32,026 nucleotides of DNA from a virus. The stretch is from positions 1 to 32,026 of the IMG/VR virus record IMGVR_UViG_3300021964_000287, one strand, 5' to 3'. The translations under genes were made by a program, and so were the position numbers. The notes below the pieces were generated by a model. It was not told the DNA's origin, searched no databases, and saw only the letters and a program-made list of their open reading frames with translations. Below are positions 1,634-32,026 of the stretch, in pieces. The first letter of the stretch is position 1. Each line of letters begins with the position of its first letter.

Positions 1634-3355
1634 CTAGTCTACAAAACGGTCCATAAATGCTTCATATGACTCTTCTATGTTCATTGGAGCATTCTGTACA
1701 TTGTGCTGACCAGCACTTAGCAGACTACTTTTAATTGCGCCATACTCGAATTGGCTAAGTTGTCCACCAGCATTAAGTTTACTACTAATGCTATGTAAAT
1801 AGTTACCTAAAGTTTCATCTTTAGCAGAATATCCTAAACTACTAACTTTGTGACCCAGTTGTTGATTCATTGTTTCGAATTCTAGTAAGTCATCTTCTTT
1901 AAGTAAATCTTTTAATCCTTCAAAAGACTCTAACTCTATTGCTCTTGTAATCTTGTTTTCAAAACTATTTTTTCTACTAGCACTTGCTCTAAGTGTATCC
2001 ATTACATTAGCAACTTTGTCATCAAAATGTGTTTCTGTAAACTTACTCTCAAGATCTATATCATCTTGTAGTATTTCTACATTGTTATATGCTGTAACAC
2101 TTTCTACTGCGTTAGCATAAGTTTTTACACCACTTAGTCTTTTAAAGTTTGTTCTGATTGTGTCTATGTTTTCTAAAGCCATTGAGACAAACTCTTCGTT
2201 TGCTTCATTAACTAAATTTGCTTTTTTAACATAGCTCAAAAACTCTTTTAATTTTTTAAACTCTCTTGACATTTCAGTAATAGACTCGCCTATTTCGTCA
2301 AAAGTTTCGCCACCATTGTGCAAATGCCTTGCCATTGCTCTTGCGGCTGACAGATTGTTTTCTGCCATCTTAAATTTTTCTTCTCCACGTTGTATTAATA
2401 TACTGTGAATATTTCTACTTCTAGCACCACGGACTTCTTCGTTTACATCTTTATTGTGCCTCACAATAATTTTAACATTGTCTGCTAGTGGTTGATAACT
2501 GGATTTTCTGCTACCAGTCATTTTACCTAAACTAGCTTCTGTTACACTTTCTTTTTGTGATAAAAATATTGCTAGTTCCATTGCTTCGTCTAAATCACGT
2601 TCTAGGCTTTCTTTATTTACAACAGCTCGTCCATCTTCGTAATCACTAGGAACATTGGTAGTAAATGCAGGATCAATAGTATCTTGTTTCAGTTGTAACA
2701 TTCTTTCATTATTATATTCCTGGTTCATTTTGATAGCCGCCGCCGCTGGGCTTGGGCCTTCTGCAGGATTTGATGGTTTGGCTTGTTCTGCCGCCCATGC
2801 TTTTTTAAAACGATCTTGCCAGTCAGGTATATATTTACCAACTGTAACTCGTAAAATTTCCCGTATAGACCCTGTTCCGTCTAAATCTAACTCTTGCTGT
2901 ACTGGTTCTGATGCTGTTGCTGGTTCTGATGATGTTGCTGGCTCTGGATTTTCTGAAACCTGATCTGTTTCTAGACCTGCAAGTTTTTTTAAAATATTCA
3001 TATCTTCTGACATTTGAATTTCCTCTTTACTCTTTTTAGCAACATCTACTTTTTCACCTTTTGGTTTAATCTGCTTATCAAATACAGAATAGTCAAAATC
3101 TAACAAATAATCTTGTGCTAGTTCTTTTAACATGGGCCTAATTTTTTCTATAGCCTCTCCTGGTGTTCCTGTTTTCAAACTTAAATGTTTATCCAGTGGG
3201 TCTATTCTAACTAATATGTTAGGGGACTCAACTGCAAAACGTGTTGCCTCCATAGGGTCAATAACTAAATCACCTTCTTTGTTAAAACTACTGACTTCAT
3301 ATCCAAAACCTTTTAGCAAATTAAAAGTTTTTTCTGCTACTAATTTCATGTTCAT
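1634..3355 (-). CDS. Conserved phage protein of unknown function, 573 aa
   Basis: I do not recognise a function. The N-terminal ~100 residues look like a compact domain (segments such as VRIDPLDKHLSLKTGTPG). A polar linker (about 100-200) carries ILKKLAGL at 121-128, a short motif also seen in the 448-aa gene upstream of the terminase, followed by runs of SEPA/SEPV. Residues about 200-573 are mainly helical and charged. No catalytic motif or membrane segment is seen. It lies between the terminase/oxygenase pair and gp32. ATG at 3355 is chosen because a GATAAATA octamer ends exactly 5 bases before it; there is no Shine-Dalgarno. A second ATG two codons downstream is possible. A structural or internal head protein is plausible but inferred only from late expression and neighbours. 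Confidence 0.75.
   Translation of the reverse strand: MNMKLVAEKTFNLLKGFGYEVSSFNKEGDLVIDPMEATRFAVESPNILVRIDPLDKHLSLKTGTPGEAIEKIRPMLKELAQDYLLDFDYSVFDKQIKPKGEKVDVAKKSKEEIQMSEDMNILKKLAGLETDQVSENPEPATSSEPATASEPVQQELDLDGTGSIREILRVTVGKYIPDWQDRFKKAWAAEQAKPSNPAEGPSPAAAAIKMNQEYNNERMLQLKQDTIDPAFTTNVPSDYEDGRAVVNKESLERDLDEAMELAIFLSQKESVTEASLGKMTGSRKSSYQPLADNVKIIVRHNKDVNEEVRGARSRNIHSILIQRGEEKFKMAENNLSAARAMARHLHNGGETFDEIGESITEMSREFKKLKEFLSYVKKANLVNEANEEFVSMALENIDTIRTNFKRLSGVKTYANAVESVTAYNNVEILQDDIDLESKFTETHFDDKVANVMDTLRASASRKNSFENKITRAIELESFEGLKDLLKEDDLLEFETMNQQLGHKVSSLGYSAKDETLGNYLHSISSKLNAGGQLSQFEYGAIKSSLLSAGQHNVQNAPMNIEESYEAFMDRFVD

Positions 3356-4038: not shown

Positions 4039-4039
<1 letters not shown>
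3374..4039 (-). CDS. 2OG-Fe(II) oxygenase-like protein (aspartyl/asparaginyl hydroxylase type)
   Basis: A 221-aa protein with the pattern of the aspartyl/asparaginyl beta-hydroxylase branch of 2-oxoglutarate/Fe(II) oxygenases. It has RLDPGGYFPPHRDHN, in which H136 and D138 form the HxD iron motif, strand FRLIVPLQY with R148, and a distal histidine in KSHYLFNAG (H186). These enzymes hydroxylate proteins or small molecules. The usual arginine about 10 residues after the distal histidine is not seen, so cosubstrate binding may rely on R148 or activity may be altered. The ATG overlaps the terminase stop by one base (TAATG), implying translational coupling. Its substrate is unknown; expression with the packaging ATPase is shown only by gene order. 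It is not closely similar to the two oxygenases near 20-21 kb beyond the shared fold. Confidence 0.65.
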
Positions 4040-5658
<1,619 letters not shown>

Positions 5659-9549: not shown

Positions 9550-9979
9550 GCTGTATGATAGAACTAAGTTTACTGCGTGAATTTAATGTAGGTGTTTTTA
9601 AATCGATTCTGTTACCAGCAGGTCTAAAAGAATTTACTGCCGCATAAGCATCTACACTTAACTTTAATGAATTTTCGTTCATTTCAAAATATGTTGTAGG
9701 ATGTAGGTTTTGAACTTCTGCTACTTTTATAAGTACTCTGGCCATTGCTAGAGCATTAGACTTTTTAAATCCTATTGCTTGTAATTTGGTTTCTATTACA
9801 CTTAATGTACTAGGATCTATTGGGGTATCTTTGGGTGCGGCAATTTCTGCCAAAATTTCTGAACTTGCTTCAGGTAAAGGAAATTTAATACTTGCATTAT
9901 CAATATAAGCAACTAAAGTACCCTGGGTAATTTTGTATTGTACTTCACCACCAAATGTATTGTACATAGAAGTTGACAT
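9545..9979 (-). CDS. Unknown protein in the baseplate/head operon, 144 aa
   Basis: No family recognised. The N-terminal part (GEVQYKITQGTLVAYIDNAS) looks beta-rich; the middle (about 40-95) is helical (LSVIETKLQAIGFKKSNALAMA is part of it); the C-terminus is polar and probably extended. No signal, membrane or catalytic motif. The start overlaps the ACP stop (TAATG) with GAGG about 11 bases upstream, so it is translated with the ACP and the tube-like baseplate protein. A minor tail or baseplate component is plausible only from context. Confidence 0.7.
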   Translation of the reverse strand: MSTSMYNTFGGEVQYKITQGTLVAYIDNASIKFPLPEASSEILAEIAAPKDTPIDPSTLSVIETKLQAIGFKKSNALAMARVLIKVAEVQNLHPTTYFEMNENSLKLSVDAYAAVNSFRPAGNRIDLKTPTLNSRSKLSSIIQP

Positions 9980-10197
9980 TACGCATAGTCCTCAATATAT
10001 TGTTTAATTGCTTTTACAGTAATTAATACTTCAGTGTCTTCGTCTGGTATTTCAATGTCATATTCTGTTTCAAATGCCATTATAAGCTCAACTATATGCA
10101 ATGAGTCTGCTCCTAAGTCATCTATAAGGTGTGCATCATCCACAACTTTATCAATACTTATGTCTAAATGATCTGCTATAATTTTTTGTACTGACAT
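9979..10197 (-). CDS. acpP: Acyl carrier protein
   Basis: A complete 72-aa acyl carrier protein. The four-helix signature is intact: DDLGADSLHIVELIMAFE with S32 in DSL as the 4'-phosphopantetheine attachment site, then EYDIEIPDEDTE and a final helix. It is strongly acidic and closely resembles bacterial fatty-acid ACP, so host holo-ACP synthase could probably load it. ACPs carry acyl or aminoacyl groups for lipid, lipoyl or natural-product synthesis. Both ends overlap neighbours by one base (TAATG), locking it between a tube-like baseplate protein and the 144-aa unknown. No ketosynthase or acyltransferase is seen in the window. It may work with host enzymes, act as a decoy, or serve in assembly. 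Confidence 0.93.
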   Translation of the reverse strand: MSVQKIIADHLDISIDKVVDDAHLIDDLGADSLHIVELIMAFETEYDIEIPDEDTEVLITVKAIKQYIEDYA

Positions 10198-17028: not shown

Positions 17029-17790
17029 TTATCCTATAACAAAACCAAGTGGAGTATTTCCTTCTTCAAAATTATGAAGCCTTTCTTTAAGACTTTCTAT
17101 TTCTGACTGTCCTTCCGCCTTAAGAGCATCACCATTGAGCGTCACAGTACCACCAGCACCAGGTAAACCTGAAGTATATTTACTTCTGGCTTCACCTAAC
17201 ATAAGTTTAGATTGTGCTAGGGCATAAGCGGCTAACCAAGGACTAGCACCTACATCTTTTAATAAAATACTTTCAGGAACAAAATTATATACACCCACAG
17301 CAATATCTTCTTCGTGTCTGATATTACGCATTATTTTTAAATTTTTAGTATTTCTATTCCAGATAAAATTATATTCGCTACCAAATACACGTCCAATAGT
17401 TTCTTTATATTGTGCAAATGCATCAAATACTGCAAGTCCACCAATTTGTCCTGCTTGTAGCATATACATATTGTTGAAAGCAACGTCGAACGGATCAAAG
17501 TTAGTACCGCCGCCACTATTGGTTCCAATACCTCTGCGGTATATACGCCTTACTTCCATTACTTCGTCTGGTAATGTATAGTCTGTTTGTCCGTCAATAG
17601 TCTCGATAAAAATTATACTCTCTTCTACACTTCCACTGCTTAACTGTCTATATATGCTTAGAGCTTTGTCTATTGCTACATCGTAGTGTTCTCTGTCTAA
17701 CTCAACATCTACTATGCCGTCAGCCAAACGAAGTTGTAATTCACGTATAACGTCTTCTCTACTACTAAATCCTATTGTATCTATTGCCAT
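17029..17790 (-). CDS. gp13: Neck (head-completion) protein gp13
   Basis: 253 aa; T4 gp13 is 309 aa. The segments VELDREHYDVAIDKALSIYRQ near residue 30-50, TDYTLPDEVMEVRRIYRRG (about 69-87), NNMYMLQAGQIGGL and a C-terminal region SPWLAAYALAQSKLMLGEARSKY are the layout of the gp13 neck family, which closes the filled head and links to gp14. In T4 gp13-gp14-gp15 are adjacent; here gp13 lies 8 kb from gp14 and on the opposite strand. ATG at 17790 is exactly 5 bases after GATAAATA, with no Shine-Dalgarno. Confidence 0.72.
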   Translation of the reverse strand: MAIDTIGFSSREDVIRELQLRLADGIVDVELDREHYDVAIDKALSIYRQLSSGSVEESIIFIETIDGQTDYTLPDEVMEVRRIYRRGIGTNSGGGTNFDPFDVAFNNMYMLQAGQIGGLAVFDAFAQYKETIGRVFGSEYNFIWNRNTKNLKIMRNIRHEEDIAVGVYNFVPESILLKDVGASPWLAAYALAQSKLMLGEARSKYTSGLPGAGGTVTLNGDALKAEGQSEIESLKERLHNFEEGNTPLGFVIG

Positions 17791-19253: not shown

Positions 19254-20210
19254 TTATTTTCCTCGGCTGAAGTTTTTTCTTATATTGTGAGGTTTATCAT
19301 TTTCTATAATGTCCTTCCAGACTGCAATAGTTTTGTCTAAGCCTTCACTAATTTCTACCTTTGGGAACCAACCAAGTCTGGTTGTGATTTTATGATTTGT
19401 GCTGTTAAGTAAATAAATTTCTCCAGGACGTTTAGGTTTGGTATTCCAATTTACATGTCCGTTCCAATCTAACTTATCAGCAATAAGTTTTACATAATCT
19501 TTTATTTTAATTGCATTATCAGGTCCTATACAAAATATCTCACCCTGACATTTGTCAGGATTTTCGATTACTGCCTGCCAGGCATCTAATAAATCATCAA
19601 TGTATATAAAGTTTCTGTATGGCTCACCATATCCTAAATTTATCTCTTTAGGGTTTTTTAACATTTGTGTAATAATTTGTTCTGTCACAAAAAAGTCATT
19701 ATCTTTTCTGCCATAAGCATTAGTTTGTCTAATTGCAGTAAATGGTAATCCATAACTTCTGTGTGCATATTCTAAATACTTTTCACAGCCATATTTTGCA
19801 ACGGCGTAGGGGGCATTAGGATTAGGAGGTGTTGCTTCATTAAATGCAATAATACCTTCTTCTTTGCCGTCTCTGATAATGTCACTAATAGGTTGCCATC
19901 CGTATACTTCCATTGTACTTGCAAACACAAAGTTTTTTAAATTAGGCAGTTCTTTTGCAACTTCTATTAGGTTTACAGTACCAGTATAATTAATATCACT
20001 AAATGTAATTTGCTCATAAAAGCTCTGCTCTACTTCTGTTCTTGCCGCTAAATGTACAATAATTTCAGGATCAAATGTTGAAATTTGCATAGCAACTTTG
20101 GCATGGTCCCTTAAATCTTCTGTTAAAAATCCTAACTCATGATTACCTTTTAGTCTTTCAACCATGTGCTGGCCTATAAATCCGTCTGATCCTGTAATAA
20201 ATATTCTCAT
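19254..20210 (-). CDS. NAD-dependent sugar-nucleotide epimerase/dehydratase
   Basis: A 318-aa extended short-chain dehydrogenase. It has the NAD-binding TGSDGFIG (6-13) at the N-terminus, the VHLAARTEV segment after beta 4, active-site S98/T99 and Y135-xxx-K139 (PYAVAKYG), and the family segment NFIYIDDLLDAW (200-211). Length fits UDP- or GDP-sugar 4-epimerases, dehydratases or reductases; which sugar cannot be told. It works in the cytoplasm on nucleotide sugars. The ATG overlaps the oxygenase stop by 4 bases (ATGA), so it ends the amidinotransferase-oxygenase-oxygenase-epimerase operon that starts at the late octamer 22327-22334. Confidence 0.88.
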   Translation of the reverse strand: MRIFITGSDGFIGQHMVERLKGNHELGFLTEDLRDHAKVAMQISTFDPEIIVHLAARTEVEQSFYEQITFSDINYTGTVNLIEVAKELPNLKNFVFASTMEVYGWQPISDIIRDGKEEGIIAFNEATPPNPNAPYAVAKYGCEKYLEYAHRSYGLPFTAIRQTNAYGRKDNDFFVTEQIITQMLKNPKEINLGYGEPYRNFIYIDDLLDAWQAVIENPDKCQGEIFCIGPDNAIKIKDYVKLIADKLDWNGHVNWNTKPKRPGEIYLLNSTNHKITTRLGWFPKVEISEGLDKTIAVWKDIIENDKPHNIRKNFSRGK

Positions 20211-20752
20211 GTTAAATCCTTCTCCTTTGCATACCCTGTAAGTTGCATTGTAAATCTAGGTTCGTAACCTAAATTAGCCACCGAATGAATTAGGTTTGGT
20301 CTTATTATAGTAAAATCACCTTTCTTATAATCTAACCAACTATCATTCTCTATTTCTATATAATGCCCCATTAATCTATCTTGTAAAAATAAATTTACTC
20401 TAACAGGCACCATTCCCTTTGTGTCCATTTCTTCTCGTTCCGCCTTTTTACGCATCTTGTATAGTGTATCAACATGCGGAGCAATAAATCGTCCAGGCAT
20501 CAGTTTATTTACTGTAACTATGCCATAGTGCAACCAATCACTAAAATTATCGTATACGCCATGTACCCAACTTGGACAATCATCTTCAAATACTTGCCAT
20601 ACCCAAGGTGCTTCATATGGATAATCTGGTACTGCTACACCCCTATCTTTCCAAAAACCACCACTATAAACTGTATTTGTATGTTCTGTAAACTTTAATC
20701 TATATAACATTTCATCTGTTATATGACTTATATCAACATGTCCTTTATGCAT
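20207..20752 (-). CDS. 2OG-Fe(II) oxygenase-like protein A, 181 aa
   Basis: A small cupin-fold dioxygenase. H93-x-D95 (APHVDTLYK) and H156 (LIHSVANLG) form the iron triad, and R166 (YEPRFTMQL) is placed to bind 2-oxoglutarate. The strand GHYIEIEND and the DYKKGDF turn complete the fold. It is homologous to the next gene (164 aa) along its length, so the pair arose by duplication. It overlaps that gene by 8 bases and the epimerase by 4. Likely reaction: hydroxylation of a small molecule, amino acid or sugar; the adjacent amidinotransferase and aminotransferase suggest a guanidino or amino compound (inference). Confidence 0.72.
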   Translation of the reverse strand: MHKGHVDISHITDEMLYRLKFTEHTNTVYSGGFWKDRGVAVPDYPYEAPWVWQVFEDDCPSWVHGVYDNFSDWLHYGIVTVNKLMPGRFIAPHVDTLYKMRKKAEREEMDTKGMVPVRVNLFLQDRLMGHYIEIENDSWLDYKKGDFTIIRPNLIHSVANLGYEPRFTMQLTGYAKEKDLT

Positions 20753-21239
20753 TTTTAAGCACCGTAATCTGTGCAGAATAAAAAGGTTCCTCTCCCATGT
20801 TACCTGCTATATGCCAATCATCTACACCAAACTTAACCCAGTCACCTGCTTTCCATTTTACAAAAGGTTGATCGTGTACTTCATAATAGTGTCCACGTTT
20901 CCAATCTTCTAAAAATATCAAGTAACGATAACTTTCGCCTTCACCGTGTTCTTGTTTTAGTTTAAAATGTTTATCAACATGATGTGGAATTGTTTGTCCA
21001 GGTTCTATGTTAATAACACTAACAACATGATGGTCGTGTCCTTGAGGTATTTTTAATGCTAAGTCATGTACCCATTGCGGTGAAGTTTCAAACATCTGCC
21101 ATATACTGCTATTATGTTTTGTATAATATTTTTCTACAGCAGGTGTCTGTTGATAACATTGAAAGTAGTCGTCAAAGTTTAACTGGCTCATCTGTTCATG
21201 AGTTATTCCAAAGTTATCAATTTTTCCGTATTTAATCAC
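20745..21239 (-). CDS. 2OG-Fe(II) oxygenase-like protein B, 164 aa (GTG start)
   Basis: Paralogue of the 181-aa oxygenase. Iron ligands H87-x-D89 (PHHVDKHFK) and H143 (DDWHIAGNMG) are kept, and RGHYYEVHDQPF and WKAGDWVKFG align with the neighbour. The arginine expected to hold 2-oxoglutarate is replaced by Phe (EEPFYSAQ against YEPRFTMQ), so the cosubstrate or activity may differ. The start is GTG at 21239, overlapping the amidinotransferase stop by 8 bases with no clear Shine-Dalgarno, so translation is probably coupled. An internal Met at residue 17 is an alternative but would cut the conserved N-terminus. Confidence 0.68.
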   Translation of the reverse strand: MIKYGKIDNFGITHEQMSQLNFDDYFQCYQQTPAVEKYYTKHNSSIWQMFETSPQWVHDLALKIPQGHDHHVVSVINIEPGQTIPHHVDKHFKLKQEHGEGESYRYLIFLEDWKRGHYYEVHDQPFVKWKAGDWVKFGVDDWHIAGNMGEEPFYSAQITVLKNA

Positions 21240-22293
21240 AGTAACTTTCTAATGTGCCTTTACGCCTAAGGTCAAGTGTAGCACAATGTATACCACCAGA
21301 CAGCGTCATAGAATGTCTAAACTGTACAGGTACACTATCTATACCGTACTTGTCAAGTTCCCTCATTAGAGGCTCTTGTGCTGAGTCTAACACTACAGTA
21401 TTCTCATCTACACTAAGTAAGTTCATTCCAATGTAAGGCGAACATGGAGGCATATACCCTTGCTCAGCAAGTTTACTGCCTTGTACTACGCAATCGTCAA
21501 ACCAAATTTTATCCCATTTCTTAAACATTTCAGGACAATTTTCTGGCGTGACCCTGCTACTATTCATTAGTACTAGTCCTGGTCTAAGCGGAACAATAGT
21601 GCTGTCAAAATGTGCAAAACTATATAGTTCACTATAATGCATTTTGTAACCCATAGGCTCAACTAAACGTTTTAACCACTGGTAGCCTTTCATGTTTCCT
21701 GAGTTACTAACTTGATATAATAAGTCTCTACCAACTCTCACAATATTAGGTGCATCAAAACAAATCTCATGATTTAATAATGTTGGTTTGTCTTCAATGT
21801 CTTCAAATGTGTACATGTCATCATGTAAGTTTGGTTTAGGTGCTTGTAACCATAATGCACCATCTTCAAATGCTTCGTACATTATGTCTTCGTATAATTT
21901 TGTTTCAAAATATCTTGCTCTTACAGGAGTAGGAGTTTCAATAAGCATATCTCCTAATGGTAAAATTAAGTCTCTAGGACACCAACTGTACCAGCCTTTT
22001 GTGTTCCAACCTTGTCCAATGTCATAATTTACATTGTCCCAATCTATAATTTTGGGTCTGCGTACTTTTACACCCATTTTTGTAAGTGCATCTGCAAGTC
22101 CGTCCGCATCTTCATTTGCTTCGTCAATTACCCATTGCGGATAAGTGCCTTCTAATTTTTCTACATCTTCTTTTTTAAAATTTGCGTAACTGAAACTTCT
22201 TGCGGATATGTCAGTTGCAATTCTGCTGTGGTGGGCATGTCCAACGATGATCTCTTCTAAAGGATCCCAATCGTTGTGGGAATTTACTATCAT
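21232..22293 (-). CDS. Amidinotransferase (glycine/inosamine amidinotransferase family)
   Basis: A 353-aa enzyme of the family that moves the amidino group of arginine to an amine, as in glycine amidinotransferase and streptomycin-pathway inosamine-phosphate amidinotransferase. The catalytic triad is complete: D180 (EICFDAPNIVRVGRD), H228 (SFAHFDSTIVPLRPGLVL) and nucleophile C337 (SGGIHCATLDLRRKG). The N-terminus NSHNDWDPLEEIIVGHA and CPRDLILPLGDMLIETP are also typical. The acceptor is unknown; glycine or an amino-sugar are the main candidates. It is the first gene after a consensus TATAAATA late promoter, with AGGAG 6 bases from the ATG, and is coupled to the two oxygenases downstream. Confidence 0.92.
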   Translation of the reverse strand: MIVNSHNDWDPLEEIIVGHAHHSRIATDISARSFSYANFKKEDVEKLEGTYPQWVIDEANEDADGLADALTKMGVKVRRPKIIDWDNVNYDIGQGWNTKGWYSWCPRDLILPLGDMLIETPTPVRARYFETKLYEDIMYEAFEDGALWLQAPKPNLHDDMYTFEDIEDKPTLLNHEICFDAPNIVRVGRDLLYQVSNSGNMKGYQWLKRLVEPMGYKMHYSELYSFAHFDSTIVPLRPGLVLMNSSRVTPENCPEMFKKWDKIWFDDCVVQGSKLAEQGYMPPCSPYIGMNLLSVDENTVVLDSAQEPLMRELDKYGIDSVPVQFRHSMTLSGGIHCATLDLRRKGTLESYCD

Positions 22294-22311
22294 TATGTCT
22301 CCTGTGTGTAT

Positions 22312-22323
22312 AGTTATATAACT
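22312..22323 (-). promoter_or_regulatory. Perfect 12-bp palindrome at the predicted transcript start
   Basis: AGTTATATAACT begins 4 bases after the late octamer, at the expected start of the amidinotransferase mRNA. It could be an operator or a very short 5' hairpin; no known site is recognised. Confidence 0.35.
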
Positions 22324-22326
22324 TAC

Positions 22327-22334
22327 TATTTATA
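22327..22334 (-). promoter_or_regulatory. Late promoter octamer TATAAATA (amidinotransferase operon)
   Basis: Exact T4 late consensus TATAAATA, the only fully consensus copy seen here, 34 bases before ATG 22293. It places the amidinotransferase, two oxygenases and epimerase under late control. Confidence 0.85.
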
Positions 22335-22344
22335 AGTTTAAATA

Positions 22345-23220
22345 CTAATCTGCTAACCATTCAGAAACACAGACTCTGTAATTTCCAGATACTCCTCTGT
22401 TAAATTCTGAGTGCCTAATTTCATCTCCAAGTCCGAATATAATGGTGTCTGTATAAACTAAATTTTGATCATCGCAAATATCTTCATATGCAGATCTATA
22501 TTTTTCCCAATTATAATCAGGAGAGAAATTTCTCATGTACTCTACGCCCAATGCCATACTGTATTCATTCTGCATTTTAACTTCGTTAAGCATACTCACA
22601 CCGTCATCTACATAGTTTCGTGTAAATCTTATTCCTACTCTGTGGTTTTCTAGTGTGCAGAAAGGTTTACTTAAACTGCATGTCACTTCCTGTATTGCAG
22701 GAAAGTCGGATAAATTAATATGTACATTTTTTGATATACCCCAATATGCTAAATCTAAACAAACAGGAATATTATATGCATTACAAATACGCATTAAATT
22801 CTCAAAGTCAGGGTGCATACAGCCATAATCACTAAAAGGAGCACTTATAATTAATGCATGTAAATCTGGACCTCTTAATGTGCCTTCTAAATGATGCGGT
22901 GAAGGTATAGTAGTAAACTCTACATGTTTTCCTAAACAAGCATGATACTGAAAGTCTCCTGCTAAAACAATTATTTCCCTGTCTTTACTATGCCTTAAAA
23001 TAAACTGATCAAATGTTTGGCTGGTTCCCTGAGTATAATCTGCATGAGAAAAATTGTCTAGACCCTGCAAACTTTTGGTATTACTATAGTTTATCCATTC
23101 TCTCCATACAGATTGATACTGGTCTAGTGTAGGTATTTTTAATTCATTCTTATCAATATGGAAATGAAAGTCTGTTATTTCTTTATTCTTTATTGGTCTT
23201 GCACCTCTAATTGCAGGCAT
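22345..23220 (-). CDS. PLP-dependent aminotransferase-like protein (fold type I)
   Basis: 291 aa with the landmarks of class I/II aminotransferases in the right order: phosphate-binding TQGTSQ (63-68), aromatic FQYHAC, ISAPFSDYGCMHPD (125-138), D156 and Y159 (VCLDLAYWG) which contact the PLP ring, the Schiff-base lysine K185 (CSLSKPF), and R194 (NHRVGIRF). It is shorter than the usual ~400 aa, mainly at the C-terminus, so the small domain is reduced. Reaction and amino donor are not predictable. The start is certain: GAGGAGGTGG, the strongest Shine-Dalgarno in the window, ends 4 bases before ATG 23220, inside the last codons of the upstream gene (14-base overlap). Product supply to the adjacent amidinotransferase is plausible. 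Confidence 0.72.
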   Translation of the reverse strand: MPAIRGARPIKNKEITDFHFHIDKNELKIPTLDQYQSVWREWINYSNTKSLQGLDNFSHADYTQGTSQTFDQFILRHSKDREIIVLAGDFQYHACLGKHVEFTTIPSPHHLEGTLRGPDLHALIISAPFSDYGCMHPDFENLMRICNAYNIPVCLDLAYWGISKNVHINLSDFPAIQEVTCSLSKPFCTLENHRVGIRFTRNYVDDGVSMLNEVKMQNEYSMALGVEYMRNFSPDYNWEKYRSAYEDICDDQNLVYTDTIIFGLGDEIRHSEFNRGVSGNYRVCVSEWLAD

Positions 23221-24574
23221 CTACCACCTCCTCAAAAAAATTATTATTGCTTATACGTCTAAATTTTCCAGTTGTTACGTTTTTATAATTGTGAGCTACA
23301 TCATTTTTTAGTAATTTCATCATATTTAAAAAATTTGTATCCGACATACTTCTGATATTGCTAATAGTATTAAAAAATCCTTGCACTCTTAATTTTAATG
23401 TATTTTGTTTGTTAAAACTTATATCCCAAAATTTATCAAATGTTTTAAAATCTAGTTTATGTAACTCTTCATATAAGCCTTTACATCCTACAGTAATAAA
23501 AGGTTTTTTAAAATACATAGGAAACATCTGTTTTTCATCTATATACCCATATCCGTACGGCTCCCCTCCAGGTATTAACGCAATATGACCTGTTTCATAA
23601 AGCCAAGGACCTGGTACTCCTCTGTCGTTTAAAGTATCAAGGTCTATGATATGTGGCCTACTGTATAAGACTTGTGTAATGCCAGACATTTCCTTTTCAG
23701 TTAATTTTTCTTTTTTTAAAAGGTCATGCATAGCAGTTGCCATTAGATTTGTATGATACGGATATTCCTCTTTAGTATCAGGGTTACTATATACCCTTGC
23801 TAAAAAACTAGGATTCATAGAATAATTTCTAGAATAAGTTACATCCTCTAATCTATTTCCTTTTTGCTCAATGTAATATGAGATTAAAAGTCTATGACTC
23901 CTGCAATTTCTCATAGTTAGTAGAAATTTATTTTTTAAATTTTTATACTCGTCTAACCCTTCTGGAGGTTCTATTTGATTTAAGTTTACATGAGTGTTTT
24001 TACTCAATATACTGGTAATATAATGTACTCTGTCTAAATACCATAGTTTATGTATTTTATGTACATTTTTACAATATTTTAAATGTTTATCATAATTTCC
24101 AAAAAAATCTTCTGTTTCTCCTGACCCACTAATTATAAATTGTGCATGAGGGAATAAACTTGACAACTTTACAAAATACATATTCGCATCAAAGAAATAT
24201 GGTTCAGTGCTTGTATAAACTAAAAATACTGTGTTAGGCAAATTATGGCCCACACATTCTGCTATCTTATCATCTATCAACTTACCAAAATCTGACAAGG
24301 TAAATTTTTCACCTGCAGATTCATAGGATAAAGGGAAACTTTGAAAGTCTATAGGAAATAAATTAATTGAATCTTTAGGGACATTGCCATCTAAATTATG
24401 TATTACATTAAATTTAAATTTTTCATTATCAATATTTCTACTATCATTTAATTGGCACAAGACTTCTAAAGGAAGTGGCTCTCTTCCTAACCATCCTATT
24501 TCATTATGCTTTCTTACTACCTCGTCTTCAAACTGAAAGCCGTTATGTAGATATACAATATTAATATTTTTCAT
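23207..24574 (-). CDS. Glycosyltransferase-like protein, 455 aa
   Basis: The C-terminal part (about 310-450) has the pattern of a fucosyltransferase-like group common in large viruses. Residues GYGYIDEKQMFPMYFKKPFI are followed by a V-G-x-x-G-L-Y-E-E-L turn, LDFKTFDKFWDISF, and a helical end with KNDVAHNYKN. Upstream, FLLTMRNCRSHRLLISYYIE is the usual entry to the nucleotide-binding half. The N-terminal ~200 residues are unassigned. The probable role is sugar transfer to a glycan or virion component, but no catalytic residue can be confirmed. The ATG lies 10 bases past the tRNA 3' end and its AAGGA overlaps the encoded CCA. It is probably co-transcribed with the tRNA and the aminotransferase. 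Confidence 0.5.
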   Translation of the reverse strand: MKNINIVYLHNGFQFEDEVVRKHNEIGWLGREPLPLEVLCQLNDSRNIDNEKFKFNVIHNLDGNVPKDSINLFPIDFQSFPLSYESAGEKFTLSDFGKLIDDKIAECVGHNLPNTVFLVYTSTEPYFFDANMYFVKLSSLFPHAQFIISGSGETEDFFGNYDKHLKYCKNVHKIHKLWYLDRVHYITSILSKNTHVNLNQIEPPEGLDEYKNLKNKFLLTMRNCRSHRLLISYYIEQKGNRLEDVTYSRNYSMNPSFLARVYSNPDTKEEYPYHTNLMATAMHDLLKKEKLTEKEMSGITQVLYSRPHIIDLDTLNDRGVPGPWLYETGHIALIPGGEPYGYGYIDEKQMFPMYFKKPFITVGCKGLYEELHKLDFKTFDKFWDISFNKQNTLKLRVQGFFNTISNIRSMSDTNFLNMMKLLKNDVAHNYKNVTTGKFRRISNNNFFEEVVDACN

Positions 24575-24583
24575 TTTAGTCCT

Positions 24584-24673
24584 TGGCGGAAAGGGAGGGA
24601 TTCGAACCCTCGGTACAGTTACCCGTACTCCTCCTTAGCAGGGAGACGCTTTAAGCCGCTCAGCCACCTTTCC
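24584..24673 (-). tRNA. tRNA-Ser (anticodon GCT), CCA encoded
   Basis: Minus-strand 90-base class II tRNA. Acceptor GGAAAGG/CCTTTCC, D arm GCTGAGCGGCTTAAAGC, anticodon loop CTGCTAA with GCT at 24639-24637, variable arm stem GTAC/GTAC, T arm GAGGG-TTCGAAT-CCCTC, discriminator G and encoded CCA (24586-24584). It reads AGC/AGT serine codons, which are frequent in these AT-rich genes. The T27-G43 pair is a wobble; all other stems are regular. Confidence 0.96.
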
Positions 24674-24680
24674 TAACCAG

Positions 24681-24688
24681 TATTTATT
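24681..24688 (-). promoter_or_regulatory. Late promoter octamer AATAAATA upstream of the tRNA
   Basis: AATAAATA ends 7 bases before the tRNA 5' end, so a late transcript would begin within about two bases of the mature tRNA. A TATAAT lies further upstream (24697-24692) but has no convincing -35 box. Confidence 0.6.
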
Positions 24689-24717
24689 AATATTATATGC
24701 TATGTTAATTTATTACT

Positions 24718-24725
24718 GATAAATA
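24718..24725 (+). promoter_or_regulatory. Late promoter octamer GATAAATA, leaderless spacing (radical SAM gene)
   Basis: GATAAATA, then AACTG, then ATG 24731. It is divergent from the tRNA octamer 29 bases away. Confidence 0.8.
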
Positions 24726-24730
24726 AACTG

Positions 24731-25867
24731 ATGTACACAAAACACATAAACAATATCCATGTAGAAGTCACAGATAGATGTAATGCAGAGTGTCCTGTTT
24801 GTCCAAGATCGCAGAGCGGCGGTGAAACATTTCCTTATGTAAAGGACCATGAATTATCTGTAGATTATTTTAAATTAATTGGTCATGAGTTTTTATCTCA
24901 AATAGGATTTTGGAACTTTTGTGGGGTAAAAGGAGATCCTGCATCAGCACAAGATTTATTTGAAATATTTGACTATATACTAGAATGTAATCCTGACACA
25001 GAAATTGTTGTTAGGACTAACGGTGGCGCCAGAAATGAAAAGTTTTGGAGTCGCATAGGTCAACTTTTTAAAGATACAAATTGTAGAATTATTTGGAGTG
25101 TAGATGGTTGGGAGGACACGAATCACATATATAGAAAAAATGTAAAATGGTCCAAACTATATAATAATATGATGTCCTATATAGAAACAGGAGCACAGTC
25201 TTTATGGGAATTTAATATTTTTGCTCATAATGAAAAAGATATTCCTCTTATTAAAAGTTTTTGTCATCAATATAATATTGAGTTTAGGCAACGAGAACCG
25301 TTTGGTTTTAAAAGAGTTGATAGGAAGGCAAGATATGATAAAGAAGAAGATGCCGTAAGTAGATTAAACAATAATAACCTAGTTGATATTAAAACTATTC
25401 CTGTATATGATAAAACAGGAGATGGCCTTACATCTAAACTTGCATACACTATAAAACCTGCCGGAGTCCCACAAGAAAATATAATTGATAATCACCCTAA
25501 TACAACTTCTATTAAAAATTATTTACCTGGTGTGTACGACTTAGATGCTTATACACCATTAAAAGGTACTAAAAAAATAGTTGACTGCCAATCTTTAAGA
25601 GATAAAAGCCAAGAAATATATTTAGACTCTAATGGTATGATTTTCCCTTGTTGCTATACTGCTGGTAAATTTCATATGGGAGACGAACAATTAAATAGTA
25701 TGTATAGGCCTTATAAGAAAAATTTAAGAGTTACAGAATCTAATAACATATACGATATTTTAAACTTAGACCTATTTAAAAAAGTAATGCCAGACGGAAT
25801 GAATGGTAAGTTAGACGACGATATAGGCTACTGTGTTACTTGTGTACAACATTGTAAGGCATTTTAA
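24731..25867 (+). CDS. Radical SAM enzyme with cysteine-rich (SPASM-like) C-terminus
   Basis: 378 aa. The radical SAM cluster motif C17-xxx-C21-xx-C24 (DRCNAECPVCPR) follows an N-terminal HVEVT strand, and the barrel continues with IVVRTNGG and IIWSVDGWED. The C-terminal part has C286, IYLDSNGMIFPCCYTAG (C307, C308) and C368-xx-C371-xxx-C375, the arrangement of a SPASM or twitch auxiliary iron-sulfur domain. Such enzymes modify peptides, sugars or small molecules by radical chemistry; no peptide substrate gene is apparent nearby. The start is fixed by the octamer at 5 bases; there is no Shine-Dalgarno. It heads the rightward operon but is separated from gp14 by that gene's own late promoter. 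Confidence 0.88.
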   Translation: MYTKHINNIHVEVTDRCNAECPVCPRSQSGGETFPYVKDHELSVDYFKLIGHEFLSQIGFWNFCGVKGDPASAQDLFEIFDYILECNPDTEIVVRTNGGARNEKFWSRIGQLFKDTNCRIIWSVDGWEDTNHIYRKNVKWSKLYNNMMSYIETGAQSLWEFNIFAHNEKDIPLIKSFCHQYNIEFRQREPFGFKRVDRKARYDKEEDAVSRLNNNNLVDIKTIPVYDKTGDGLTSKLAYTIKPAGVPQENIIDNHPNTTSIKNYLPGVYDLDAYTPLKGTKKIVDCQSLRDKSQEIYLDSNGMIFPCCYTAGKFHMGDEQLNSMYRPYKKNLRVTESNNIYDILNLDLFKKVMPDGMNGKLDDDIGYCVTCVQHCKAF

Positions 25868-25880
25868 GTTTCTTAAAACC

Positions 25881-25888
25881 GATAAATA
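25881..25888 (+). promoter_or_regulatory. Late promoter octamer GATAAATA, leaderless spacing (gp14)
   Basis: GATAAATA, then GTAGC, then the gp14 ATG at 25894. It probably drives gp14, the 111-aa gene, gp15 and the Nudix gene. Confidence 0.82.
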
Positions 25889-25893
25889 GTAGC

Positions 25894-26964
25894 ATGCCAA
25901 GATTAAGTTTATGGAATCCGACTAAAACAAATGACTATAGTTTCATTGATAGAGTCGTGGGCGAACATATTTTCGCAGGTGGAACTGGAGTACATATACA
26001 CAAATATATGGGTATCCAGGACACACCTAACAGCAACGACCCTACCAGACCAAGTAGTGGCTCAGGAACTAACAATGAAGTATTCATACAGGATTTATTA
26101 TTTTTAGAAAATAGAGATAGAAAATACAGCGAAGACATTTATGAATTACGTGGTCAATATAACTTAGGAGATAATGATTCCTTTGATTTAACACAATTTG
26201 GAATGTTCTTAGCAAACGACACATTGTTTATGAACTTCCATACTGAAAGCATGGTAGATGCCGTAGGCAGACGTTTAATGCCAGGAGATGTTTTAGAACT
26301 TCCTCATTTACGTGATGATCTACTTTTAGGTAGTGATGAAGCAATAAACAGATTTTATGTTGTTACAGATGCTAGTAGGCCTGCAGAAGGATATGATCCA
26401 CGTTGGTGGTCACATCTTTGGAGAGTAAAACTAGGTCCTATAACAGATTCACAAGAATACAGAGACATACTGGGTACTGGCGAAGAAGAAGGCGATTTAA
26501 GAAACTTAATAAGCACCTATGCTAACGAAATAAAAATTAGTGATGCTATTTTAGAACAGGCAGAGCGTGATGTTCCGTTTGATTCACAATATAGAAAAAC
26601 TGGTCATCTTTACATGGATGATAGTGTACCAGATAAACCAGCACCTGGATTAGACTTTGGAGGTGCTGACGGAACTGTACCAAATGGTTCGAGCATAGTT
26701 GGTAGTGGTGCAACATTCCCAACAAGTGGTACTACTGACGGAGACTACTTTTTAAGAACTGACTTTTCACCTAATAGATTATTTAAAAAGTCAGGAACAC
26801 GTTGGCTAAATGTAGGTTCAGATATGACTGGTTCATGGAGTGCCGCAAATAGAATACTTAAAGGATTTATTAATAATGATTCAACATTTACAGATGACGA
26901 AGGAAATACTGTACAGGAAAAAGTAAATCTAAGCAAAATAGTGAAACCTAAAACGGACAATTAA
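25894..26964 (+). CDS. gp14: Neck protein gp14
   Basis: 356 aa; T4 gp14 is 256. MPRLSLWNPTKTNDYSFIDR, VVGEHIFAGGTGVHIHKYMG, then VFIQDLLFLENRDRKY and the tryptophan-rich DPRWWSHLWRVKLGPITDSQ are characteristic of the gp14 neck family that joins head and tail. Extra residues at the C-terminus (about 260-356) include GDYFLRTDFSPNRLFKKSG then TRWLNVG, the same short aromatic unit found in gp18 and gp15 here, probably a surface decoration. ATG follows the late octamer by 5 bases. The next gene starts one base past the stop. Confidence 0.9.
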   Translation: MPRLSLWNPTKTNDYSFIDRVVGEHIFAGGTGVHIHKYMGIQDTPNSNDPTRPSSGSGTNNEVFIQDLLFLENRDRKYSEDIYELRGQYNLGDNDSFDLTQFGMFLANDTLFMNFHTESMVDAVGRRLMPGDVLELPHLRDDLLLGSDEAINRFYVVTDASRPAEGYDPRWWSHLWRVKLGPITDSQEYRDILGTGEEEGDLRNLISTYANEIKISDAILEQAERDVPFDSQYRKTGHLYMDDSVPDKPAPGLDFGGADGTVPNGSSIVGSGATFPTSGTTDGDYFLRTDFSPNRLFKKSGTRWLNVGSDMTGSWSAANRILKGFINNDSTFTDDEGNTVQEKVNLSKIVKPKTDN

Positions 26965-26965
26965 G

Positions 26966-27301
26966 ATGAAATTTAAAGAAATTAAAATATTACATGAAAA
27001 CCAACAGGTAATAGATAAGTTAGAAGACAAAAAAACAAATTTAGAATTTGCATTGTCCTCTGCTAGAGATATTACCAAAACTATAAAATATGCAGATATG
27101 CATGTTGAAATTGTTTCTCAATTAGGTTCACTTGCTGAAGAGCATGGATTAGAATTAGATGAGTACCAGGAAAGACAAGTATATGAAGCAAAGAACAAAC
27201 TTGAAAGTGAAATATACGAATTAGAAGAAGTTTTTAAAGACGCAATTAGAGATGTAACAAACAAGATTGACGAACTTGAAACGGAGATGGAAGGCTACTA
27301 A
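26966..27301 (+). CDS. Coiled-coil protein of unknown function between gp14 and gp15, 111 aa
   Basis: Almost entirely helical and charged, with heptad-like runs (for example VIDKLEDKKTNLEFALSSAR and YEAKNKLESEIYELEEVFKD), ending in a further amphipathic helix. No known domain. It is tightly spaced with gp14 (1 base) and gp15 (1 base), so it is made with the neck and sheath-terminator proteins. An assembly factor or small structural protein is possible, without direct evidence. Confidence 0.75.
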   Translation: MKFKEIKILHENQQVIDKLEDKKTNLEFALSSARDITKTIKYADMHVEIVSQLGSLAEEHGLELDEYQERQVYEAKNKLESEIYELEEVFKDAIRDVTNKIDELETEMEGY

Positions 27302-27302
27302 A

Positions 27303-28655
27303 ATGGCAGGCAAGAACTTAGATTACTGGTATGATGAACAGATAAAACGATATCTTATTCAGATTATCAGATTATTCTCAAATTTTCAGACAAGAGAATA
27401 CACAAAAAAAGGTGTAAAATATAATCGTGTGCCTGCAAGATATGGCGATATGAATAGAATGGTTGCAAGTATCTTGCGTAATAACTCAGAAAACATTATT
27501 AATAGTGCACCTTTTATAAGTGTGACTGTTCAGAGTTTACAACCAGCAAGAGATAGAACACATGAACCATTTTTAGTTGATACAACACAGGTAGCAGAAA
27601 GAGAGTTTAATAAAGAAACTCAAATATACGAAAATAGGCAAGGCAATTTATACACCACACAGAGATATATGCCTGTTCCATATAACTTAACAATACAGAT
27701 GGATTTATGGTCCAATAATACCGATACTAAACTACAGGTATTAGAGCAGATCCTTGTATTATTTAATCCTAGTATACAGTTACAGTCTAACAGCAATCCT
27801 TTAGATTGGACTAGTGTTTTTGAAGTAGAACTAACTGATATTACTTGGAGTAACAGAAGTGTTCCAGTGGGAACAGACGAATCAATAGATATTTCAACAT
27901 TAACATTTAGTTCTCCTATATGGATCTCGCCTCCAGCAAAAGTTAAAAAACAATCCATCATACAACGAATCATAGCAAATATTCATAGTGTTAGTAGTAT
28001 TGCTGATTTAGGCTATGATGAAGACTATGCTGACTTTTTTGGAGACATTGAAGATACCGCAGAAGTTGTTGTAACACCTGGAATGTATAGTGTACGCATT
28101 AGCGGAGCATCAGCAGTATTATTAAATGAACAAGGTGTTGCTGTGCCCTGGACAGATATAACTGAAATGCAAGGTAGTATAAGATCGACCAGTTTATTAA
28201 AGTTAAATACCAGTGATGATACAAATAATTTTCTAGGAGAAGTTATTGGTACTATTATAACTGATACCACAACTCCGTCTAATTTAATTTTTAATTTAGA
28301 TACAGATACTCTGCCAACAGATACAATTAATGATGTAGACAAAATAATAGATCCCAGAGAAAACTATCCAGGAGATGGCACACTAGCGGCGGCAGTAAGT
28401 GGGCAAAGATATTTAATCACAGAACAAATCACAACCAGTGGCTATCCAAACTGGAACATAGATGCTAATGAAAATGACATTATCGAATATAACGGAAGTG
28501 CATGGGTAGTATCTTTCGATGGAGCATCACAATCAGGCAATACACACTATATGCACAATACATTTACATCCAAACAATATCAGTGGACAGGAACTCAATG
28601 GATAAGTAGTTATGAGGGAGAGTACAAACCAGGATATTGGAGACTTGTTTTATAA
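27303..28655 (+). CDS. gp15: Tail sheath stabiliser/terminator gp15
   Basis: 450 aa; T4 gp15 is 272. The N-terminal ~240 residues follow the gp15 layout: DEQIKRYLIQIIRLFSNFQT, YNRVPARYGDMNRMVASIL, MPVPYNLTIQMDLWSNNTD, VLEQILVLFNPSIQL and a tryptophan-containing close FSSPIWISPP. The protein caps the sheath and tube and meets the neck. The C-terminal extension ends in a module (about 365-450, GQRYLITEQITTSG, then IIEYNGSAWVVSF and QYQWTGTQWISSYEGEY) that looks like the DUF2793 type found on phage tails. I start at 27303, one base past the preceding stop with AAGG upstream; a longer frame from 27267 would overlap that gene. Confidence 0.85.
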   Translation: MAGKNLDYWYDEQIKRYLIQIIRLFSNFQTREYTKKGVKYNRVPARYGDMNRMVASILRNNSENIINSAPFISVTVQSLQPARDRTHEPFLVDTTQVAEREFNKETQIYENRQGNLYTTQRYMPVPYNLTIQMDLWSNNTDTKLQVLEQILVLFNPSIQLQSNSNPLDWTSVFEVELTDITWSNRSVPVGTDESIDISTLTFSSPIWISPPAKVKKQSIIQRIIANIHSVSSIADLGYDEDYADFFGDIEDTAEVVVTPGMYSVRISGASAVLLNEQGVAVPWTDITEMQGSIRSTSLLKLNTSDDTNNFLGEVIGTIITDTTTPSNLIFNLDTDTLPTDTINDVDKIIDPRENYPGDGTLAAAVSGQRYLITEQITTSGYPNWNIDANENDIIEYNGSAWVVSFDGASQSGNTHYMHNTFTSKQYQWTGTQWISSYEGEYKPGYWRLVL

Positions 28656-29728: not shown

Positions 29729-30088
29729 TTAATATATTTTTCTTATCTGGTAGTCAAAAGGTTCCACAGTTCTAATCTCAAATGCTCTTCCATCCATATC
29801 TTTTCCTTTAATATGCTTTGGAGTTTTCTTAGAAATTTTCTTTAAAAGATACCTTTTATTTGATCTTGTAGTAGTTATATTTCCGTCTTTGTCTCTGACA
29901 GAATCTTTTAAGTACCATACAGTTAATTCATATTCTTCATATATTATTTTAAACCAAAGTCTTAGGATTGCTTTCCATACTTTAAACAATAATTCTGCTG
30001 TAAATTTTACTGCAACTTTAGTTTTTTGCCATAACCATACTGATGATGTTTTAATTTTTTGTGATATATTGTGTAAAAAGTTTTTCAT
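29729..30088 (-). CDS. Conserved small phage protein of unknown function, 119 aa
   Basis: The first ~50 residues form an amphipathic or membrane-associated helix rich in Lys, Trp and Phe (VKFTAELLFKVWKAILRLW is part of it). The rest is a small beta-rich domain (YELTVWYLKDSVRDKDGN ... RAFEIRTVEPFDYQIRKIY). The latter half looks familiar from marine T4-like phage genomes, but I know no function. ATG at 30088 lies 5 bases after an ACTAAATA octamer that is formed by the last codons of the cyclase gene. Confidence 0.72.
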   Translation of the reverse strand: MKNFLHNISQKIKTSSVWLWQKTKVAVKFTAELLFKVWKAILRLWFKIIYEEYELTVWYLKDSVRDKDGNITTTRSNKRYLLKKISKKTPKHIKGKDMDGRAFEIRTVEPFDYQIRKIY

Positions 30089-30092
30089 ACTA

Positions 30093-32026
30093 CTATTTAG
30101 TTGTTTTACGTTCTATACCGTCCCATTCGCCCTTAGGCATAGGTTGTTTAATTCTTTCTTTATATAAATCTGCTAAAACAGGATTCCAGTTATGCTGATC
30201 TATAATTTCTATTTGATGTGCAACTGTGCTCCATTCTCTGTTTTGATATGCATCAACCATTCTGTTTACTACTCTTGCATACTTGTGATCATTTAGTATA
30301 GTATAAATTGTTACAGGATCAGTTTGTCCTTTTACAGCAATTTTATCTAGCATTACTAAATTTTCTGGAGTGTTTATTTGTTTTAGTGTATGCTCAGTAA
30401 ACATAAAGAATACACCATACTCTTTTGTTTGTGCTTCTAGTCTTGCCGCTAAGTTTACACTATCACCTAATACAGTATAATCAAAACGTTGATTACTTCC
30501 CATATTACCTACAACTGCGTCACCTGTATTAATACCTATACCAACACCCAACTCCATAAGTCCATCTTCTTTAAGCTCTTTGTTAAGATTTTTAAGTTCT
30601 ACTTCCATTTCCTGTGCCGTCTCTATTGCCAACTGAGCATGATTATCAACATCCAGTGGAGCATTCCATATAGCCATTAAGGCATCACCTATATACTTGT
30701 CTATAGTTCCTTCTTTACGCATTACTAGATCAGTCATTGGCGTCATATATCTGTTTATAAGTTTACCTAAGCCTTGTGGGTCTGTTTTAAACTGTTCCGA
30801 TATAGGAGTAAATCCGCGAATGTCTGAGAACAAGTAGGTCATTGTTCTTGTGTCTCCACCTAAACGTAATAGGCTTGGATCTTTTTGTAACTTCTTAACC
30901 ATTGCTGGTGCTAGGTAATGCTCAAATTGTTTCTTAATTTGTTCTCGTAATTTAAATTGTTTGTAGAAGTTATTAAATGCCGCCTGTGTAAATATTAAGA
31001 AGCCGCCTATTACAGGGAATGTAGCATCTAATAATACTAATTGTGACGTATATAAATGTACACTATAATACCCTATTCCGCCCAAGATAAGCAACGATAC
31101 TGGCGCCGTTAGTAGTAAAGGGAGTCTATATACTGCTACTGCTACTAGAACCATTATCAGAAGGGCTATCACAAGCTCGTAGAACGCGGCTGTTTGGCTT
31201 CGTGTTATGTTACTGCCACTTATAAAGTTCTGTAGCATATGAGCTTGTATCTGCTGTGGATATAAGTTTCCTCTAGGCGTAGGTACCGGATTAGCAATAC
31301 CTTCTGCTGTGACACCCACTATAACCATTTTACCTGCTAGATCTGGTATGCTGTCTGCTCCGGTATATTCTATAGTTTCAAATTTGTTATTAAATCTTAT
31401 ATATGCTGTGCCATCAGGCTGAGTAACAATAGGTTCAAATCCTTTAACAGCAATTTCCTGTATACCTATTTCACTTGTTTTAACTATATAACTTTTATTG
31501 CCAGTTTTAACTCTCAACATTTCCACAGCAAAACTAGGATAAATTTTTTCACCTACTGTGATTGCTAGTGGATATGTTCTTGTTTGATTGTCTGGTTGTG
31601 GTGCAGAAGCATTTACTCCTTTTCCATTTGACATTACTTCCAGCATAGGTACATTAGTTACTAAGTTAGGCCACTTTAACAAATAGTCTTTTGCTGGTAC
31701 AGGACCAATAGTTCCTGTGCCTATATGAGGGCCTGATGTTTTTATACCTTTAACACTAGGTGTTTGGCTTAACACATTATAATTAATAGGGTTTCGTCTT
31801 GCTCCAGGAACATTTACTTTATTTTGTTCTAAAAAACTAGCAAAAGTTGGATCTCCACCAAAACGATCTTCTTCTGGAAACATTATGGTCCAACCCACCA
31901 CTCCACTATTTTTACTAGCAACATCTACAATTAGTTGAGCATAGTATTGTCTTGGAAAAGGATATTGTCCATAAGTTGCTAAAGTGTTTTCACCAAAGTT
32001 TAACAATACAACATCTTCACTTTGTA
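30093..32026 (-). CDS. CHASE2-domain membrane adenylate/guanylate cyclase, class III (partial at right edge)
   Basis: The frame is open to base 32026, so the N-terminus is missing; at least 643 residues are present (numbers below count from the TTG at 32006). Residues 1-270 match a CHASE2 extracytoplasmic sensor (SEDVVLLNFGENTLATYG, then YPFPRQYYAQL, later DLAGKMVIVGVTAEG). Three membrane helices follow (about 276-345), then a class III cyclase domain: metal ligands D395 (FSDIRGFT) and D441 (YIGDALMAIW), base-selecting K437 and T511, and transition-state N518 and R522 (SVNLAARLE). K plus T points to an ATP-using class IIIb enzyme making cAMP (inference). All catalytic residues are kept. The last codons overlap the next gene's late promoter, tying it to the phage genome. 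Confidence 0.92.
   Translation of the reverse strand, partial: QSEDVVLLNFGENTLATYGQYPFPRQYYAQLIVDVASKNSGVVGWTIMFPEEDRFGGDPTFASFLEQNKVNVPGARRNPINYNVLSQTPSVKGIKTSGPHIGTGTIGPVPAKDYLLKWPNLVTNVPMLEVMSNGKGVNASAPQPDNQTRTYPLAITVGEKIYPSFAVEMLRVKTGNKSYIVKTSEIGIQEIAVKGFEPIVTQPDGTAYIRFNNKFETIEYTGADSIPDLAGKMVIVGVTAEGIANPVPTPRGNLYPQQIQAHMLQNFISGSNITRSQTAAFYELVIALLIMVLVAVAVYRLPLLLTAPVSLLILGGIGYYSVHLYTSQLVLLDATFPVIGGFLIFTQAAFNNFYKQFKLREQIKKQFEHYLAPAMVKKLQKDPSLLRLGGDTRTMTYLFSDIRGFTPISEQFKTDPQGLGKLINRYMTPMTDLVMRKEGTIDKYIGDALMAIWNAPLDVDNHAQLAIETAQEMEVELKNLNKELKEDGLMELGVGIGINTGDAVVGNMGSNQRFDYTVLGDSVNLAARLEAQTKEYGVFFMFTEHTLKQINTPENLVMLDKIAVKGQTDPVTIYTILNDHKYARVVNRMVDAYQNREWSTVAHQIEIIDQHNWNPVLADLYKERIKQPMPKGEWDGIERKTTK
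30094..30101 (-). promoter_or_regulatory. Late promoter octamer ACTAAATA, leaderless spacing (119-aa gene)
   Basis: ACTAAATA, then GTAGT, then ATG 30088. The octamer spans the last sense codons and part of the TAG stop of the cyclase gene. One mismatch from NATAAATA. Confidence 0.68.

Follow-up and report, generated by a model that had tools for sequence, protein, structure and literature searches.

The DNA stretch analyzed here (the window; 32,026 nucleotides of IMG/VR virus record IMGVR_UViG_3300021964_000287) ends in a minus-strand gene (positions 30093 to 32024, 643 codons plus stop) that almost certainly encodes the phage class III cyclase of a curli cassette. The core of this finding, a phage CHASE2 cyclase within a curli-FecR-adenylate cyclase cassette, is already in the literature; new here are the member from a jumbo phage lineage, a bacterial FecR-CHASE2 unit, the exchange of catalytic domains, and a late-promoter grammar. 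With moderate confidence, we propose from the genomic data that the protein functions as a late, FecR-coupled adenylyl cyclase that reports on the surface of the infected cell or on its curli apparatus.

The frame is open from position 32024, at the window end, down to a stop codon at 30093 to 30095. Complete homologues have 689 residues, of which the first 46 would lie beyond the window end. The remaining protein comprises a CHASE2 periplasmic sensor domain (31140 to 32012, fragment residues 5 to 295; Pfam PF05226, E=1.4e-27), three hydrophobic helices and the start of a linker (30960 to 31190, about residues 279 to 355), a class III nucleotidyl cyclase catalytic domain (30297 to 30845, residues 394 to 576; Pfam PF00211 [Guanylate_cyc], E=5.4e-20; PDB relatives CyaC, Cya2, and CyaB), and a C-terminal helical extension ending in WDGIERKTTK (30096 to 30293), all encoded on the minus strand. 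Related motifs of the WDGVFVATSK type end the bacterial homologues. The sensor, the hydrophobic helices, and the helices of the extension were located with the AlphaFold model of a 91% homologue, L008 (mean pLDDT, 86), which has one N-terminal helix, an alpha/beta periplasmic domain, three long hydrophobic helices (325 to 346, 349 to 374, and 381 to 413 in L008 numbering), and a cyclase fold. Foldseek matched the catalytic part to CyaC, Cya2, and CyaB and the whole length to an uncultured phage protein. The predicted arrangement of CHASE2, three transmembrane helices, and a cytoplasmic output domain fits a CHASE2 receptor cyclase, the N-terminal transmembrane helix of which is visible in complete relatives only.

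The window protein has all six residues of a class III cyclase: metal-binding Asp401 (30822 to 30824), substrate-binding Lys443 and metal-binding Asp447 (30684 to 30698), and substrate-binding Asp521, transition-state Asn524, and Arg528 (30441 to 30464), again on the minus strand. Each is covered by phmmer alignments to Cya2 and CyaC. Asp401, Lys443, and Asp447 are invariant in 62 aligned phage sequences, 124 unique phage sequences, and 73 bacterial sequences; Asp521 and Arg528 are invariant as well, and the window protein has Asn at position 524. Together with the two Pfam matches, these residues bear out the initial annotation, which had read the gene as a phage-encoded CHASE2 receptor-type class III cyclase. 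The dN/dS values (about 0.11 for the sensor and 0.07 for the catalytic domain) point to purifying selection on both sensor and enzyme. The enzyme is thus predicted to be a class III cyclase with an intact adenylyl-type active site, and we consider cAMP its likely product. A different cyclic nucleotide, which had also been suggested, is not favored for the window protein because its Lys/Asp pair (K443 and D521) is of the ATP type; the same pair occurs in 124/124 unique phage sequences.

Relatives of the cyclase are encoded in 173 viral stretches. A contig of 250,519 bases (G001) matches 31 of the 36 window proteins, 28 of them collinear, and carries the cyclase in the same place with 83.7% identity. 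Since the gene sits at the very end of its contig, host contamination or a chimeric assembly was considered. Its probability is negligible: it is contradicted by the collinear contig, by the 44 full-length members of its clade found across many samples, by late-promoter boxes of the same grammar as those of virion genes, and by the distance to the nearest bacterial homologues found in our scan, alphaproteobacterial CHASE2 cyclases with only about 35% identity. The earlier judgment that the gene is not host contamination therefore stands, and the collinear contig, with the cyclase in the same place, argues against a contig join near the gene, which had been named as a possible refutation.

The window terminase is 59.6% identical to those of PA5oct-like Pseudomonas jumbo phages (family Arenbergviridae) and only 32% identical to that of Pelagibacter phage HTVC008M. 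Because the terminase is nearer to PA5oct, the window is best assigned to a jumbo T4-like lineage near Pseudomonas phage PA5oct, and a place among the pelagimyophages (HTVC008M-like Kyanoviridae) was rejected. Related cyclases lie on contigs of 340 kb (L274), 217 kb (L283), and 251 kb (L044), so that a jumbo phage lineage has the gene.

In L008, the cyclase gene is preceded by genes for CsgF, CsgG, a curlin-repeat protein (with a Pfam score just below the cutoff), a FecR-domain protein, and a second curlin-repeat protein. The same order is found in HTVC008M and Melnitz, and in the relatives as a whole small ORFs lie between the second curlin-repeat gene and the CHASE2 cyclase gene. Of the phage loci that extend 6 kb or more upstream, 12/12 had FecR and 11/12 had CsgG, the sole locus without CsgG ending shortly beyond FecR. 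The cassette genes were seen upstream of the cyclase in L008 and L044; the window's own upstream DNA lies beyond the window end, which is why the initial annotation could not see the cassette. Its view that receptor cyclases are not usual T4-like phage genes has to be revised, since two cultured T4-like phages have one and a pelagiphage cassette of T8SS (curli), FecR, and adenylate cyclase is described in Wittmers et al. 2022 (PMC9599517). The curli part was described in Zaragoza-Solas 2020 and Buchholz 2022 (PMC9004378).

Like the pelagiphage cassette (HTVC008M, AGE60353; Melnitz, QZI94833), that of the window lineage has the order CsgF-CsgG-curlin-FecR-curlin-cyclase, known here from the window's relatives; the cyclase has the same CHASE2-class III architecture and likewise lies beside T4-like structural genes. 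It differs in belonging to a PA5oct-like jumbo phage (terminase identity of 60% to PA5oct versus 32% to HTVC008M), in joining a type I sensor to a type A catalytic domain, in several additional small ORFs that separate FecR from the cyclase, and in the cyclase gene's own late box. Carriage of the cassette by a jumbo lineage was not found in the available portions of the published accounts, which is no proof that it is undescribed.

The CsgG gene of the cassette bears on a possible role in lysis, by which the cyclase would monitor the CsgG pore or the state of the envelope and time host lysis, in analogy to the CsgG pinholin idea for Melnitz (PMC9004378). The late boxes and the adjoining virion genes would suit such a role, and a lysis role for CsgGF is proposed by Buchholz et al. 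(PMC9004378). We nevertheless regard lysis control as distinctly unlikely, as no link from cAMP to phage lysis is known and the cassette holds curlin-repeat proteins, which suit fiber export.

In bacteria, 44 CHASE2-cyclase loci had 5 kb of flanking sequence on each side; a FecR-type gene lay within 10 kb in 24 of them and was immediately adjacent in 13. The background of 52 FecR domains in about 60.6 Mb (11 of these genomes) predicts about 0.02 per locus; the observed and expected counts used different profiles, so that the enrichment is approximate. Neither CsgG nor CsgF was found at 80 bacterial CHASE2-cyclase loci, and five alphaproteobacterial CsgG loci had no cyclase or FecR within about 10 kb. 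FecR and the CHASE2 cyclase are thus indicated to form a bacterial unit, without curli in the bacteria sampled. Because these bacterial FecR-cyclase loci lack curli and these CsgG loci lack FecR and cyclase, the phages appear to have joined two bacterial modules, curli and FecR-CHASE2-cyclase. Published loci are consistent with such a unit: in Campylobacterota, a FecR-domain outer-membrane protein is encoded in the same cluster as CHASE2 cyclases (PMC9239204), and in a Burkholderia biofilm operon a CHASE2 histidine kinase lies beside a LysM-FecR protein (PMC5192318). FecR is here more readily taken as partnering CHASE2 than as regulating iron, and it is reasonably likely to be the signaling partner of the phage cyclase.

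The alphaproteobacterial pairs (Bradyrhizobium, Thalassospira, and Rhizobium) share with the phages a CHASE2 domain joined to a class III cyclase, in several cases a WDGV-type C terminus, and a FecR gene near or immediately upstream. They differ in sequence (about 35% identity), in the absence of adjoining CsgG or CsgF genes, and in FecR, which in these bacteria is often part of a fusion with large surface repeats (cadherin or laminin-G). Giant FecR surface proteins with cadherin, laminin-G, and Ig-like repeats are encoded at L088 (4532 to 9877) and at similar Bradyrhizobium loci.

The two halves of the phage cyclase have different histories. In L059 and L062, the sensor is about 82% identical to that of the window, and the catalytic domain is 85% identical to that of Melnitz and about 40% identical to that of the window; in relatives of this kind the identity switches within the linker, near residue 361. 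Swapped catalytic domains were also seen in L065, L228, L242, L253, and others. In trees, the phage sensors formed one clade (SH-aLRT, 100) and the phage catalytic domains formed three types. Constraining the sensor-I set to a single group in the catalytic tree was rejected (p-AU, 1.5e-5), and so was the corresponding constraint on the catalytic-C set in the sensor tree (p-AU, 9e-49); these p values are optimistic because the groups were named after the trees had been seen. The main combinations among 124 unique full-length phage proteins were I-A (45), III-C (43), and I-C (26). FecR distances correlated with sensor distances (0.85; partial correlation, 0.84), and the partial correlation of FecR with the catalytic domain was 0.05. 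These patterns indicate that the sensor was inherited with FecR and that the catalytic half was swapped between sensors, although the covariation of FecR and sensor could come from the coinheritance of linked genes and not from contact.

Position 524 follows the catalytic types. It is Asn in 53 and Ser in 71 of the 124 unique phage sequences; Ser524 occurs in 71/71 type C proteins, in no other phage type, and in 0/73 bacterial sequences. The Ser-type domains may differ in rate, substrate, or product. More tentatively, the FecR-CHASE2 sensing pair may have been inherited as a unit while its catalytic module, including the Ser type, was exchanged by recombination, yielding a phage-built second-messenger circuit that senses the surface and would govern the infected cell. 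The swapped type C domains with Ser at the transition-state position could instead be taken to favor counterdefense, in which a different or excess cyclic nucleotide disturbs a cyclic-nucleotide defense such as Pycsar, and PADLOC PycC models do match the catalytic domain. These matches, however, reach only the shared class III fold, the ATP-type Lys/Asp pair is universal among the phage sequences, and the genomic partners are curli and FecR. We therefore regard counterdefense as very unlikely; membership in Pycsar PycC was rejected, as the PADLOC matches cover only the shared catalytic fold and the neighbors are curli, FecR, and virion genes.

Several observations suggest that the cyclase belongs to the late program of the phage. 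The last cyclase codons, ACT-AAA-TAG, form the box ACTAAATA (30094 to 30101, minus strand, including two bases of the stop codon), which has one mismatch to NATAAATA and lies exactly 5 nt before the ATG of the ORF at 29729 to 30088. The initial annotation had read the final cyclase codons as the late promoter of a phage gene, which is correct in substance. Of the 44 full-length relatives, 12 share this ACTAAATA-type arrangement at the cyclase 3' end; in 7 others, a perfect ATAAATA-N5-ATG overlaps the stop codon of the cyclase. G001 has 27 ATAAATA boxes exactly 5 nt before an ATG and none at 4 or 6 nt, with about 2 expected per spacing, and the HTVC008M stretch has 5 boxes exactly 5 nt before a start codon. 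NATAAATA was seen at this distance from the start codon of many genes in the window (1634 to 29728), G001, and L082; the window genes include 1634 to 3355, 4039 to 5634, 17029 to 17790, and 25894 to 26964. In T4 late promoters, the box is centered near −10, and with such a placement transcripts would start at or beside the ATG. From the 5-nt spacing, late mRNAs of these T4-like marine phages are thus expected to be leaderless. An exact late box also precedes the cyclase gene itself in 41 of the 44 full-length members of the window clade, for which reason the cyclase is probably expressed late in infection.

The box in 41 of 44 relatives also makes an early takeover of CRP-type metabolism, in line with the rewiring that the initial annotation had suggested, less likely. 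By that reading, the cyclase would raise host cAMP and switch CRP-type carbon or energy genes for replication, its position after curli being incidental. The ATP-type active site would agree with this, and with no phage-encoded receptor found in ten phage records, the target would have to be a host receptor. We consider the reading unlikely in view of the late-promoter box in place of early expression, the large conserved periplasmic sensor, and the regular presence of FecR (12/12) and CsgG (11/12) at the phage loci with enough upstream sequence.

For the favored FecR-coupled cyclase, the following sequence of events can be envisaged. Late in infection, the phage would build a CsgG/F pore and curlin-like fibers on the host, and the secreted FecR protein would link the outer-membrane apparatus to the CHASE2 periplasmic domain. 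A change there would reach the catalytic dimer by way of the transmembrane helices and the linker, and the dimer would convert ATP to cAMP. The cAMP would then act on a host receptor and so, during fiber production, tune either timing or host genes for the surface or metabolism. A host receptor is proposed because a cyclic-nucleotide-binding domain (PF00027) had no match in ten phage records, some of them fragments, on which basis a phage-encoded cAMP receptor was set aside; a literature search on SAR11 cAMP receptors yielded nothing useful. It is plausible but somewhat doubtful that what the cyclase signals is the condition of the curli apparatus or of the outer membrane. The cyclase's own promoter box and the 3 to 6 kb that separate it from FecR in the window clade count against FecR coupling.

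A functional parallel is known in Sinorhizobium meliloti, in which the CHASE2 cyclases CyaD1, CyaD2, and CyaK answer a protein signal via the outer-membrane beta-barrel NsrA (PMC13001267), so that cyclase activity follows an outer-membrane event, as proposed for the phage. CyaD1 without CHASE2 synthesizes cAMP constitutively (PMC5498481). On this analogy, a change in the state of the FecR/outer-membrane apparatus would most likely lead the phage enzyme to increase cAMP late in infection. The S. meliloti system differs in being bacterial, in its output, which is control of root infection by the Clr regulon, and in that no curli cassette is reported in the available portions of its description. 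A FecR-domain protein of S. meliloti, SMc02177, was a Clr/cAMP target and was not needed for signal perception (PMC5498481), so that in some systems FecR may lie on the output side. If the proposed circuit is correct, abundant marine phages install amyloid-fiber secretion together with a receptor that reports on the fibers via cAMP; some of their hosts lack curli (PMC9599517 and PMC9004378). For CHASE2, a sensor domain with few known signals, the FecR-CHASE2 pairing would supply a partner that can be tested, and the exchanged catalytic domains would serve as natural chimeras for studying how CHASE2 controls a cyclase.

The ORF downstream of the cyclase (29729 to 30088, minus strand) encodes 119 amino acids of unknown function with no Pfam or PHROG match; it is absent beside the cyclase in L008, and other relatives have different genes or none at this place. 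Elsewhere in the window, possible surface or metabolite genes lie amid neck and tail genes (19254 to 28655), among them an NAD-dependent epimerase/dehydratase (19254 to 20210) and a radical SAM protein (24731 to 25867). ORFs without a Pfam match (20207 to 24574) belong to the same group; one, of 353 amino acids (21232 to 22293, minus strand; PHROG 25854, function unknown), resembles glycine amidinotransferases by eye. An acyl-carrier-like protein (9979 to 10197, minus strand; PP-binding, E=7e-10) is encoded amid structural genes. The window has one tRNA gene, tRNA-Ser (gct) at 24584 to 24673 on the minus strand, and G001 has two.
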